Virus record (IMG/VR): IMGVR_UViG_3300012985_000026
Location: 1 to 25,818 of that record
Source of the DNA: a virus
Direction: 5' to 3' (one strand)
DNA: 25,818 nt
Shown: positions 2,486-23,395 of the stretch, piece by piece
Position numbering within the stretch: the stretch's first letter is position 1
Layout: each line of letters opens with the position of its first letter
Notes under the pieces: generated by a model
Told to the model about the DNA's origin: nothing
Database searches by the model: none
What the model saw: only the letters and a program-made list of their open reading frames with translations
Translations under genes and position numbers: made by a program

Positions 2486-2973
2486 AAAAGCTAATCATAA
2501 TTATATTTATATCAACCCTATCTTATTCTCAAGACATAAGATTAGGAGATACTGAAACATTCAACATATCTATTTTAACTGATGCTAGAGCCTCGATTAA
2601 AGAAAAAGGAATCAACATAGGCGGAGAGATAGAACTTGTTTCTAACGCGATTTACGTGCGTTCTGGAATACAGACATTTTCTGTTCTTGAAGGCGGTTAT
2701 ATGGATTGGACAACTGGAATAGGTCTAAACCTTAAATCAGGCTACTTTGACAATTTCAGATATTACGCTGGAGGAAGATTAGGGCTTATTTGGAGAGACG
2801 GCAATTCATATCCGACAGCAGGATGTGAAATAGGAATAGAACATAATTTCAATTCTGGATTTATTTTAGGATTGAGAGGCACATACGATTACCGTTCTGA
2901 CTTTGAGTATTGGTCCAATAATAAAGCAGAAATGAGATATAGTTGTTTTATAAAGATAGGTTTTAAACTTTAA
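2482..2973 (+). CDS. Secreted outer-membrane beta-barrel-like protein
   Basis: This 163-residue protein has a signal peptide (MKKLIIIIFISTLSYSQ, cleavage near S16/Q17). It is followed by alternating amphipathic strands separated by Gly/Asn/Asp turns, for example GINIGGEIELVSNAIYVRSG and YYAGGRLGLIWRDG. It ends CFIKIGFKL, a hydrophobic/aromatic C-terminal strand as in outer-membrane barrels. Such a protein would insert in the host outer membrane and could alter the receptor or exclude superinfecting phage; that role is inference. It is coupled to its neighbours by ATGA upstream and a 3-bp gap downstream. Confidence 0.6.
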   Translation: MKKLIIIIFISTLSYSQDIRLGDTETFNISILTDARASIKEKGINIGGEIELVSNAIYVRSGIQTFSVLEGGYMDWTTGIGLNLKSGYFDNFRYYAGGRLGLIWRDGNSYPTAGCEIGIEHNFNSGFILGLRGTYDYRSDFEYWSNNKAEMRYSCFIKIGFKL

Positions 2974-2976
2974 ATT

Positions 2977-3717
2977 ATGCAATCAGAAATAAGAGGTGTC
3001 GCTTTTAAAGACCGAACTGGGATAAAAATAAATACAAATCAAGGATATTTAGTAGAAATAATAGATTACATTGATTGTAACAACTGTACTGTACAATTCC
3101 CTGAAGGAAATATTGTTTACAATATTCCTTATGCCAGCGTTCACAGATGTAAGAATCCATATCATAAAACTGTTTGCAATGTCGGATACATAGGAAACGG
3201 ATATTATAATAGAACCAATACACCCCATGCATATTATATATGGAAAGGAATTATTAGAAGATGCTATTCAAAAGAAATTAACAAAAAAAATAACTCATAT
3301 AAAGATTGTTTAGTTTCCATTGATTGGCATAATTTTCAGAATTTTAATTATTGGTTTGAAGAAAATTTCAATCCTGATACAATGTTAGGATGGCACATAG
3401 ATAAGGATATTCTATCAAAAGGTTGTAAAGAATATTCTGCAAAAACTTGTTGCTTTGTTCCTCAAGAAATAAATATTAATTTTTCAAGATTAGAAAAAAA
3501 TTCAGGCATATCTTTTAGACGAGGTAAATATATAGCAAACATTAGTGTGTTTAATAAAAATAATTATATAGGTAGCTATGATAGTTATGAGTCAGCATTT
3601 AAAGCATATAAGGATGTAAAAGAAAAACATATAAAATTTCTTGCAGACAAATGGAAACATAAATTAAATAATTCGGTTTACAAGGCTATGTATGACTATA
3701 AAGTAGAATTAAAATGA
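2977..3717 (+). CDS. AP2/HNH-type homing-endonuclease-like protein
   Basis: The 246-residue protein has a central block YYIWKGIIRRCYSKE...SYKDCLVSIDWHNFQNFNYWFEEN (about residues 87-130), as in phage HNH-like endonucleases. The C-terminal block GISFRRGKYIANISVFNKNN followed by SYESAFKAYKDVKEK resembles an AP2-type DNA-binding domain. Cysteine pairs (CNNC about 34-37; CC about 157-158) may bind zinc. The DNA is visibly more AT-rich than the late genes, consistent with a mobile free-standing endonuclease. I cannot point to an unambiguous H-N-H triad, so it may be an inactive or DNA-binding-only relative. Confidence 0.65.
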   Translation: MQSEIRGVAFKDRTGIKINTNQGYLVEIIDYIDCNNCTVQFPEGNIVYNIPYASVHRCKNPYHKTVCNVGYIGNGYYNRTNTPHAYYIWKGIIRRCYSKEINKKNNSYKDCLVSIDWHNFQNFNYWFEENFNPDTMLGWHIDKDILSKGCKEYSAKTCCFVPQEININFSRLEKNSGISFRRGKYIANISVFNKNNYIGSYDSYESAFKAYKDVKEKHIKFLADKWKHKLNNSVYKAMYDYKVELK

Positions 3718-20252: not shown

Positions 20253-21456
20253 ATACAAATATTCAAAGGCCTATTATAAGATACTAGACCTGATTACGTC
20301 CCATCCTGATGAGGACGTTTTTGTTATTAGGGGAGGTCAGGGAGCAGGAAAGACAATATCCATATTGCAGCTTGTCATACAGTCTTTGGTATCATCTGAA
20401 AAAGAAGTAACGGTTTTATCTGATGCGCTCTCAAAGATGAAACGAACCGTAATGCGAGACTATAAAAAGATTTGCAAAGACTGGGGATTATTCACGGGTG
20501 AAAATGATTTCAACAGATCCGAAAGCAAGCACGAATATGTAAACGACAGCTACATAGATTTCATGGGTGCTGATTCTGCCGATATCGGAAAGGGATTCAG
20601 AAGGGATATCATTTATATCAACGAGGCTGACAAACTAGATTTAGATACCGCAGTACAATTCATATCACGTGCCGGACTTACAATAATTGACTACAATCCA
20701 GATAGCCTATTCTGGGGAGACGATTATATAAACGAAAACAACTTTATAACTCTTACATTCGAAGATAATGAGTTCTTGCCAGAAAGTGAGGTTAAATCAA
20801 TTTTAGAATATAAGACTAAAGGTTTCCATAATTATGACCTACCATTTGATTTATTATTCAAGGATGAAAACATAAAAAACAAATATTGGGCAAACAAATG
20901 GAAAGTTTACGGTCTTGGAATGATAGGTTCATTAGACGGGGTTGTTTTCTCTAATTGGTCAGAAATAGACAAAGTTCCAGATGAAGCCAGATTACTTGGA
21001 TATGGACTTGATTTTGGATACAGCAATCACCCTACTGCCATAATCGAAGTTTATAAATGGAATGACAAAAGGATTCTGAATGAGATTTGTTATGAAAAAA
21101 GATTAAGCAATGCGGCCATAGCAAAAAAGATACCTTCAAAGCTACCATGTTATTGCGATTGTGCCGAACCGAAATCAATTGATGAATTAATAGACAATAG
21201 GATAAACGCAATTGGAGCAGATAAGGGCGCTGACAGTATCAACTACGGAATACAATTAATGCAGGAACAAAGTTATTTGGTGACTAGCAATTCAATAAAC
21301 CTTAAGTTAGAATTGGAAAAACATACATGGGCTAAAGACAAAAGAACTGGAGAATCTTTGAATAAGCCAGTAGACGCATTCAATCATGCTATTGATGCGG
21401 TAAGGTATCACGAAATGGAAACATTAGGCAGAAGCTTTGGAGTAGAAATAAGATAA
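20233..21456 (+). CDS. terL: Terminase large subunit
   Basis: The 407-residue protein has Walker A GGQGAGKT (34-41), Walker B IIYINEAD (126-133, Glu131 catalytic) and a coupling segment LTIIDYNPD. The C-terminal RNase H-like nuclease has likely metal ligands D260 (YGLDFGYSNHP), D309 (YCDCAEPK) and D381/D388 (DAFNHAIDAVRY). It packages DNA into proheads. The start appears to be TTG 20233: no ATG occurs between the preceding in-frame stop and residue 69. It is followed not by a portal gene but by a new promoter and tail genes. Confidence 0.93.
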   Translation: MEIEKNKYKYSKAYYKILDLITSHPDEDVFVIRGGQGAGKTISILQLVIQSLVSSEKEVTVLSDALSKMKRTVMRDYKKICKDWGLFTGENDFNRSESKHEYVNDSYIDFMGADSADIGKGFRRDIIYINEADKLDLDTAVQFISRAGLTIIDYNPDSLFWGDDYINENNFITLTFEDNEFLPESEVKSILEYKTKGFHNYDLPFDLLFKDENIKNKYWANKWKVYGLGMIGSLDGVVFSNWSEIDKVPDEARLLGYGLDFGYSNHPTAIIEVYKWNDKRILNEICYEKRLSNAAIAKKIPSKLPCYCDCAEPKSIDELIDNRINAIGADKGADSINYGIQLMQEQSYLVTSNSINLKLELEKHTWAKDKRTGESLNKPVDAFNHAIDAVRYHEMETLGRSFGVEIR

Positions 21457-21460
21457 GACA

Positions 21461-21622
21461 TTTGTTTATCATTATTTTTTGCTTTATATTTGATGTAACA
21501 AAAAAAAGGTTAGCGACTTGCACACTATAAGTCTGATGTTTTAAATATATACTTAGCACTTTGCACCCTTTTTGTCTGATAACAAAAATCCTTCGGTCGC
21601 CAAACTTGGAGGATTTTTTGAT
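21461..21622 (+). promoter_or_regulatory. Late promoter and structured leader E
   Basis: TTTG (21461-21464), N20 and TATATTTG (21485-21492) form a strong promoter. GCGAC (21513-21517) lies in the 5' leader. The terminator stem AAAAATCCT (21584-21592) pairs with AGGATTTTT (21610-21618), with a 17-base loop containing GTCGC (21596-21600), complementary to the 5' motif; a G-U pair and two flanking A-T pairs extend it. This is the same order as in leaders A, B and C. Between them lies a 43-nt-spaced direct repeat. Confidence 0.65.
21510..21580 (+). repeat. Direct repeat in the late leader (two 28-nt units, 43-nt period)
   Basis: Units 21510-21537 and 21553-21580 share TTAGC, TTGCAC and GTCTGAT at identical spacing, 21 of 28 positions matching. 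TTAGC-N16-GTCTGAT has the spacing of ECF-sigma promoters, so tandem alternative promoters or regulator sites are possible. Confidence 0.55.
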
Positions 21623-21667: not shown

Positions 21668-22282
21668 ATGAAGGATAAGGTAGAAATAACATTGCCAGAA
21701 AATATATCAGAGATAACCCTAGAGCAGTTCCAGAGGTATGACAAGCTTATGAAGCGAACAGACCTAGACGAGTTCAACAGGAATAAAAGACTTATCGAGA
21801 TATTCTGTGGTATTACGTTCAGAGAAGTAGATAACATAGGAGAAAAAGACTATGATGATATCTTGGGTCAGATAGCAATAGCATTAACTACCAATTCTGA
21901 ATTTATACCTAGGTTCACCCATAACGGGGTTGACCTTGGATTTATTCCAAACTTTGACAAGATAACGACGGCAGAGTATGTAGACTTATCCACACACGGA
22001 ATCGATGTAGAAAACCTTCACAAGACCATGGCCGTTTTGTTTAGACCCGTAACAGGCAAAGACCCGTTTGGGAATTACAAGATAGCAGAGTATAACGGTA
22101 CTTCCCAATATGCAGATATGATGAGGGGAATACCTATGAACGTAGTAAATGGCGCGCTGGTTTTTTTTTACAATTTAGCGAACGAATTACAGGACTATAC
22201 CCTGAGATATACGATGGAGGCACGAAGGAAGGAAAAGGCGCATCTGACTACTTCTCTAAGTGGGGATGGTATGCTACGGTAA
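21668..22282 (+). CDS. Tail assembly chaperone-like protein (upstream, G-like frame)
   Basis: I start it at ATG 21668, where the leader ends; the frame upstream only reads through the terminator. The 204-residue product has DKVEITLPENISEITLEQFQRYDKLMKR (2-29) and LGFIPNFDKITTAEYVDLSTHGID, as in Bacteroidota phage proteins that occupy the tail-chaperone slot. Codons 166-167 are TTT TTT inside a U9 run (22161-22169). The alternative -1 frame downstream encodes conserved-looking sequence, so this is the short product of a frameshift pair. Confidence 0.65.
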   Translation: MKDKVEITLPENISEITLEQFQRYDKLMKRTDLDEFNRNKRLIEIFCGITFREVDNIGEKDYDDILGQIAIALTTNSEFIPRFTHNGVDLGFIPNFDKITTAEYVDLSTHGIDVENLHKTMAVLFRPVTGKDPFGNYKIAEYNGTSQYADMMRGIPMNVVNGALVFFYNLANELQDYTLRYTMEARRKEKAHLTTSLSGDGMLR

Positions 22283-22431
22283 AAAGCCTGTCAAGAAACA
22301 AGCCCTGGAAAATAAACGCCATATTGGAATTGAACATACATGAAATGCACACCTATCTGGCTTGCGACATCGACGAAAAGAAAATGAAACACATCCTTAT
22401 GAAAGGCGGTGCAAATACGGTGAACCTATGA
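22168..22431 (+). CDS. Frameshift extension of the tail chaperone (T-like part, -1 frame)
   Basis: After a -1 slip on U UUU UUU (22162-22168), the frame reads LQFSERITGLYPEIYDGGTK ... SDYFSKWGWYATVKSLSRNK ... EMHTYLACDIDEKKMKHILM ... and stops at TGA 22429-22431, overlapping the next ATG as ATGA. SDYFSKWGWY and HEMHTYLA are typical of tail-chaperone C-terminal parts. The first ATG in this frame comes only at EMH, after the conserved block, so independent initiation is unlikely. The predicted fusion is about 254 residues and would help load the tape-measure protein. Confidence 0.65.
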   Translation, partial: LQFSERITGLYPEIYDGGTKEGKGASDYFSKWGWYATVKSLSRNKPWKINAILELNIHEMHTYLACDIDEKKMKHILMKGGANTVNL

Positions 22432-22901
22432 ATCAATACACGCAGCTATTATATTACATAAAGTCGTTGGCAGATGCCGATCCGTTAGTCAACACGGTAA
22501 CACGCGGAGAATTTGATAAGATTGATTTGGATAAGGGAATCATATTTCCATTGGTTCATATAAATGTTACCGGAGCAGAGTTCAACAACGGAAGTACGGT
22601 TGTTTTCAATGTACAGATTGGCGCATTGGATATACGCGATATAAACAAGGAAATCAGGACTGACAAGTTTTGGGAACAAGACAATGAGGTTGACAATCTA
22701 AACGAAATGTTTGCCGTTCTAAATAGGATATGGCTTAACATGTACAGGGATTTCCAAGACAATAACATAACGGCATCAGAAAACCCTACATTAGAACCCC
22801 AGATATTTAAAAGGACTAATCTTCTTGATGGTTGGATATTGAATTTTGATGTAGAAATGCCTAATACAGAAATATCATTATGTCTGTCAAAACTGAATTA
22901 G
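22428..22901 (+). CDS. Tail or head-tail structural protein
   Basis: I start it at ATG 22428 (157 residues), overlapping the stop of the frameshift product; an in-frame ATG at 22362 lies inside that product. MNQYTQLLYYIKSLADADPLVNTVTRG and the beta-rich VHINVTGAEFNNGSTVVFNVQIGALDI...LLDGWILNFDVEMP suggest a tail-terminator-like structural protein. The assignment rests on fold impression and position, not on a firm family match. Confidence 0.5.
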   Translation: MNQYTQLLYYIKSLADADPLVNTVTRGEFDKIDLDKGIIFPLVHINVTGAEFNNGSTVVFNVQIGALDIRDINKEIRTDKFWEQDNEVDNLNEMFAVLNRIWLNMYRDFQDNNITASENPTLEPQIFKRTNLLDGWILNFDVEMPNTEISLCLSKLN

Positions 22902-23395
22902 ACCGCTTCGGTAAATATGTAGTGCAGCAGTCACGTTATAACCTTTCAAGGTCAGACAAGAACGACAGCAAGAGCCTATATAATTCCATTGGGTATCAGC
23001 TAGAAGTATCTCCTAATAGCTTTTCATTGTCGTTTACGATGGAGGATTACGGGGAGTTTGTAGACAAGGGAGTTAAAGGGGTTAGCAGTTCGGCTAAAGC
23101 ACCTAAAAGCCCTTTCAAGTTCGGAACGGGTACAGGCAAAAAAGGAGGACTGACAAAAGGAATAGACGGATGGGTAAGAAGGAAAAGATTCCAGTTCAAG
23201 GAAAGAGGCACTGGAAAGTTCCTAAGTTATGAAAGCACTGCCTTTTTAGTCAGAAGAAGCATCTGGAATAAGGGAATAGAAACGACTAACTTTTTCACCA
23301 AGCCATTTGAAAGGGCATTTGCAAGGCTTTCTGATGATGTAGTAGAAGCCTATAGCCTAGAAGTAGATGATTTATTAAAATTTGCATTAAGATGA
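22880..23395 (+). CDS. HK97 gp10-like tail component
   Basis: The 171-residue protein has ELDRFGKYVVQQSRYNLSRSD (about 6-26), a beta-strand region SFSLSFTMEDYGEFVDKGVKG (47-67), a Gly/Lys-rich loop and a helical end with AFLVRRSIWNKGIETTNFFTKPFERAF. The order 'helix, VSFxMxxYgxfvDkGvkG, Gly loop, FLVRRSIWxxGI' fits HK97 gp10-type head-tail connector proteins. It starts inside the previous gene. Confidence 0.6.
   Translation: MSVKTELDRFGKYVVQQSRYNLSRSDKNDSKSLYNSIGYQLEVSPNSFSLSFTMEDYGEFVDKGVKGVSSSAKAPKSPFKFGTGTGKKGGLTKGIDGWVRRKRFQFKERGTGKFLSYESTAFLVRRSIWNKGIETTNFFTKPFERAFARLSDDVVEAYSLEVDDLLKFALR

Follow-up and report, generated by a model that had tools for sequence, protein, structure and literature searches.

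A length-conserved T9 run at a reading-frame junction in phages points to transcriptional slippage in a putative tail chaperone gene

The window analysed here is the whole stretch of an IMG/VR viral record, 25,818 bases in length, and the question raised by one of its genes is how a G-like protein comes to be joined to a T-like extension encoded in the -1 frame, and whether it is the ribosome or the RNA polymerase that changes register at the run of nine T's where the two frames meet.

Layout of the locus and constancy of the frame relation

The features of the locus, with two neighbouring genes given for context, are as follows.

20284..21456, + strand: terminase large subunit (PF04466, PF17288), directly upstream (context)
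21668..22282, + strand: G-like protein, the 0-frame product, 204 aa, with a conserved part of 167 aa up to the putative slip site; ATG at 21668, stop codon at 22280-22282
22161-22169, + strand: T9 run, the putative slippage site, read in the 0 frame as GTT TTT TTT TAC and flanked by G22160 and A22170
22168..22431, + strand: T-like extension in the -1 frame, 87 codons plus stop (TGA at 22429-22431)
22170..22282, + strand: overlap in which the tail of the 0 frame and the extension are both open
22428..22901, + strand: next gene, 157 aa, phrog_30964, whose start codon shares ATGA with the stop of the extension
22880..23395, + strand: phrog_29822 protein (context)

The original prediction, made from the letters of this DNA, was of a programmed -1 ribosomal frameshift in a tail chaperone gene, and its description of the site was borne out. 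The coding sequence that starts at ATG 21668 reads GTT (from 22160) TTT TTT TAC, placing T TTT TTT in frame at 22162-22168, and the -1 frame is open from 22168 to 22431, contains the motif SDYFSKWGWY and ends in ...CTATGA, so that it overlaps the following gene, whose ATG is at 22428. As had also been claimed, the -1 frame of the window has no ATG, GTG or TTG between the previous stop and the conserved block. In a PHROGs search the G-like protein matched phrog_32199 (E=3.5e-14). Between the terminase and the G-like gene, at 21587-21620, there is a hairpin with T's after it (AAAATCC...GGATTTTTT), and two stretches that resemble each other lie ahead of it (GCACACTATAAGTCTGATG / GCACTTTGCACCC..GTCTGATAA); this is a possible terminator or regulatory site, uncalled by a consensus scan. 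The + strand of the window also carries two A9 runs.

Viral contigs were scanned with the G-like protein, the extension and relatives of both, and the loci obtained reduce to 124 distinct sites, drawn from IMG/VR contigs and from two isolated Nonlabens phages, P12024L and P12024S, which are the sole named relatives (both T9, with a G part about 28% identical to that of the window). The comparison of homologues for a conserved slippery run, proposed with the original prediction, gave a clear result: the extension stood in the -1 frame relative to G, the two meeting at the T run, in all 124 sites, and every run was of T8 to T10 (T9 in 119, T10 in four, T8 in one, T7 or shorter in none). In 311,627 other bases from 54 of the loci, T9 was found once, alongside 140 T6, 46 T7 and nine T8 runs. 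As every complete homologous site carries the run while T9 is this rare elsewhere, its presence at the site is far beyond chance. The 13 loci in which a site was not detected are all explained: nine records end inside or just past the gene, the two loci L024/L215 represent a single contig with a T9 run and a further break of frame in its extension, and L089/L155 represent another, in which G and T are fused in one frame. In the former contig (L024:2629-2847) the extension is broken after KWGWYCT and goes on in the G frame despite T9, through either assembly error or decay.

Among the near relatives, L089 alone encodes G and T within a single frame (2548-3267, 239 aa). The original prediction had held that homologues fused in one frame at a different run length would expose a sequencing error in the T run; one such homologue, with T7, was thus present in the close set, and it is read as a divergent natural fusion, since the other complete sites have T8-T10 and are all in the -1 relation. 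It carries T TTT TTA, a classic -1 ribosomal heptamer, at the site; a -1 slip on it would run into a stop some eight codons later and leave a short G. The two products could have exchanged roles in L089, as in dnaX. The terminase of L089 looks unlike that of the window. Furthermore, eight BFVD proteins of 226-267 aa (e.g., A0A516L611, A0A516L5A8 and A0A6J5N0W0) were matched by both the G model and the T model. The T-model matches were individually weak (E 0.1-0.7) and, the T-domain model being itself weak (pLDDT 70), single T matches mean little; the same full-length proteins nevertheless recur in the G and T lists, and they are probably one-ORF G+T fusions.

Selection on both reading frames

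The substitutions separating 44 close pairs of sequences revealed selection on both frames, with the switch between them placed at the run. Of the substitutions in the 30 bases ahead of the extension start, 71% fell at third positions of the 0 frame, while in the 30 bases past that start 48% fell at third positions of the extension, rising to 57-74% further on. Past the 0-frame stop, substitutions at extension codon positions 1, 2 and 3 numbered 89, 73 and 328, respectively; the third frame over the same region was never open (mean 8.9 stops). This switch of codon phase at the run, together with the third-position bias, argues for translation of the extension into protein from roughly the run onward. 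Likewise, the conserved -1 relation, the change of substitution phase at the run and the occurrence of one-ORF forms all indicate that a trans-frame fusion is made. At the DNA level, the locus therefore consists of two selected frames joined at the run, the arrangement expected of a short product and a trans-frame extended product that share their N-terminal part. The claim of a conserved, selected -1 transition at the T run, fusing G-like and T-like parts, was accordingly upheld by both the homologues and the frame-specific substitutions.

These observations also bear on two explanations in which no programmed switch takes place. The gene would truly lie in one frame in virion DNA, as it does in L089, if the T run reflected phase variation through slippage of replication or a homopolymer error of sequencing or assembly; however, the same frame relation recurs across the 124 distinct sites as well as in two phages isolated and sequenced separately, no site has a frame-restoring indel in the run, and selection acts on two frames and switches between them there. 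Both sequencing error and phase variation were ruled out by this constancy, and the explanation is given almost no credence. Scarcely more probable is that the extension is a separate gene, expressed by re-initiation or from a non-canonical start. The extension does contain an ATG in P12024L and P12024S, where it is annotated as a gene start, but no ATG, GTG or TTG lies between the run and the W-G-W motif in 114 of the 124 distinct sites (and no ATG upstream of that motif in 111), which excludes a separate start codon for the extension. Moreover, selection on the extension frame begins at the run rather than at a start codon, and fused forms exist.

Run length, codon register and the agent of the switch

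The T9 run is placed in three different phases relative to the codons of G: GTT/CTT TTT TTT Txx; TTT TTT TTT [A/C/G]xx; and GGT/AGT TTT TTT TTx. Among 53 lineages sharing less than 90% identity, the base following TTT TTT was not a T in 15/15 cases when the preceding codon was TTT, but was a T in 32/33 cases when that codon was GTT or CTT and in 5/5 when it was GGT, AGT or TCT. A permutation of 54 rows gave the same picture, with T9 expected in about 23 rows if the two sides were independent and observed in 48, a number not reached in any of 20,000 permutations (p<=5e-5 at every dereplication level). One row of this set (L010/L035, the same contig) had been picked at a T6 run, and correcting it would bring T9 to 49; it is absent from the tree, the folding and the 53-lineage counts, and was corrected in the 124-site count. 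On a quick protein tree built without the site, some branches of which are weak, the register changed at least nine times and the run length five times. Both Phe codons of the site were TTT in 53/53 lineages, whereas in the rest of these genes TTC makes up 20% of Phe codons. Judged by these counts, it is the total number of T's that is under selection, with the codon phase left free.

A U_UUU_UUN heptamer on which two tRNAs slip in tandem does not account for the two additional T's or for their exchange between the sides, because seven positions suffice and the last base is tolerant; both are predicted if an enzyme reads the run as a whole. RNA structure 5' or 3' of the run showed no excess over shuffles or control stretches in the 53 lineages (downstream, with folding that did not include pseudoknots, the mean z was about 0 and no better than in control stretches); a stimulator hairpin is not evident on either side of the run, and no terminator-like hairpin was found at or before it. 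Flavobacteria mostly do not rely on Shine-Dalgarno pairing, which makes an internal stimulator of that kind unlikely.

The second product therefore, in our assessment, probably arises by programmed transcriptional slippage on T9. The host RNA polymerase would lose register within the run, because its 9-10 bp RNA:DNA hybrid would there consist entirely of rU:dA, and would add one U in a minority of transcripts. The resulting U10 mRNA would give the 254-aa G-T fusion by ordinary translation and the U9 transcripts the 204-aa G-like protein, whereas transcripts lacking one U would give a G of 169 aa; we infer both the agent and the preference for insertion over deletion. Nine T's fit the length of the hybrid of bacterial RNA polymerase and the length at which slippage is efficient in vivo (PMC5009743), such slippage being known on runs of nine A or T (PMC5009743, PMC1088944). 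Runs of this kind are avoided in many bacterial coding sequences, and the slippage threshold varies among bacteria (Baranov 2005, PMC1088944). As in known slippage genes, the window has an uninterrupted A/T run of about nine or more at the frame junction, and across the homologues it is the length that is conserved rather than a codon-phased heptamer, as seen from the compensating gains and losses of T and the three registers.

The original prediction had instead named the ribosome, as in lambda G/GT: at U_UUU_UUU (22162-22168) both tRNA-Phe would re-pair one base back in a few percent of ribosomes, giving the fusion. Its heptamer is in frame and the -1 transition is real, and an X XXY YYZ motif (here T TTT TTT) is found in the 0 frame at every site, yet this does not discriminate, as T8 or more supplies it in any register seen. 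In its direction and in its place close to the end of a G-like gene, the transition matches lambda-type G/GT (PMC5009743), the related in-frame fusion of L089 has T TTT TTA at the same spot, and the predicted fusion is the same 254 amino acids whether it arises from one added U or from a ribosomal -1 step. For this last reason, mass spectrometry or dual-luciferase assays in their plain form, as had been proposed, would not separate the mechanisms. What the heptamer leaves unexplained is that nine T's are kept regardless of register: seven U's would be enough, but T7 was found in 0/124 sites and T8 in one, the T's shift sides while their total stays at nine, and the last base, free in heptamers elsewhere (U_UUU_UUA/C), is always U here. 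The stimulatory structure was not found in the 53 lineages, and in E. coli ribosomes shift to -1 less readily on U_UUU_UUU than on A_AAA_AAG (PMC5009743). Ribosomal frameshifting is thus considered unlikely, though a serious contender. A combination, in which polymerase slippage fixes the level and ribosomal shifting raises it further, is far less probable again; T9 satisfies the requirements of both mechanisms, but nothing requires the ribosomal part.

Gene context, related systems and annotation

For the function of the two products, the gene order in two related contigs (L295 and L296) is informative: terminase, G, GT, the phrog_30964 protein, a weak Neck1/tail-completion match, further tail-like genes, the tape measure (E=1.9e-4 and 4.4e-6), a head protease, a probable capsid protein and the portal. 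In L296 it is the phrog_29822 homologue that weakly matches tail completion/Neck1. By this order G/GT opens the tail module and precedes the tape measure gene, though not as its immediate neighbour. Tail genes come before head genes in both contigs, the tape measure being followed by the genes for the protease, the capsid-like protein and the portal. The tail-chaperone role that had been proposed fits the gene order but found no match to a known chaperone family, nothing significant being obtained in Pfam, PHROGs or NCBIfam, and one BFVD protein named tail assembly chaperone matched at E=0.28. The AlphaFold2 model of G (residues 1-167, pLDDT 93) had no PDB match with E<=0.001 and no meaningful match with Foldseek and VIA-align, which is still compatible with a shared fold. 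On architecture and gene position, a chaperone role is plausible, and the G and G-T pair probably acts in tail assembly as lambda gpG and gpGT do. The host is probably flavobacterial; two scans of bacterial genomes found no relative and named no prophage host.

The closest mechanistic parallel is mxiE of Shigella flexneri, in which a T9 run (PMC6260861) in the first ORF receives one extra nucleotide (PMC1088944) at a frequency of 20-30% (PMC4256274), the added U joining an overlapping ORF so that short and long products arise (PMC6260861, PMC1088944). There, a type III secretion (T3SS) regulator is encoded and slippage is proven, whereas here the gene would be a phage tail gene and slippage is deduced. 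RNA polymerase slippage on homopolymers also gives two length variants from tssM1 of Citrobacter rodentium and dnaX of Thermus thermophilus, although on A11 and A9 runs, respectively, and in bacterial genes; both variants of tssM1 are needed, and its authors liken the case to lambda G/GT (PMC4256274). With lambda the present locus shares a two-part tail-region protein, with an abundant G-like product and a G-T fusion made through a -1 transition near the 3' end, but in lambda the slip is ribosomal (PMC5009743). The present G and T have no detectable sequence or solved-fold relationship to those of lambda, and with 20-30% slippage the G:GT ratio would differ widely from the 30:1 of lambda. Lambda G/GT is placed between the major tail and tape measure genes; the gene described here instead follows the terminase and precedes neck/tail genes, the tape measure lying several genes further on.

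Frameshifting in G/GT serves as the textbook example of ribosomal recoding among phages, and software takes frame switches in phage tail genes to be ribosomal. It is rather likely that widespread environmental phages, with one cultured genus (Inhavirus, on a marine flavobacterium), make their tail-chaperone pair by polymerase slippage on a length-locked T9, so that the ratio of products would be set by host transcription and not by the ribosome and the solution of lambda G/GT would be reached by another mechanism. If so, predictions of phage frameshifts need a second class. Length that is kept while codon phase changes is an unusually clean evolutionary signature, by which polymerase slippage can be parted from ribosomal slippage on sequence alone. 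mxiE-type slippage and two-product G/GT genes are both known; their combination and the length-locked signature appear to be new, no description of transcriptional slippage in a tail chaperone gene having been found in the literature searched, subscription papers lying outside that search.

The annotation of P12024-like phages, in which the extension is now a separate gene or missed, would also be corrected. P12024L genes 40-41 and P12024S genes 38-39 are direct homologues of the present pair, with T9, the -1 extension and the terminase upstream, but are annotated as two separate hypothetical proteins. The expectation that gene callers overlook the extension was borne out: in P12024L it was called as a separate 55-aa gene, P12024L_41 (L012:3079-3246; JQ823123 24473-24640), from an ATG inside the extension. 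This start is an artefact, shared by P12024S, and P12024L_41 founds a PHROG of its own, phrog_38404. Several short T-only BFVD proteins (53-84 aa) also match the T model, which suggests that the extension has been called as a separate gene in their phages too.
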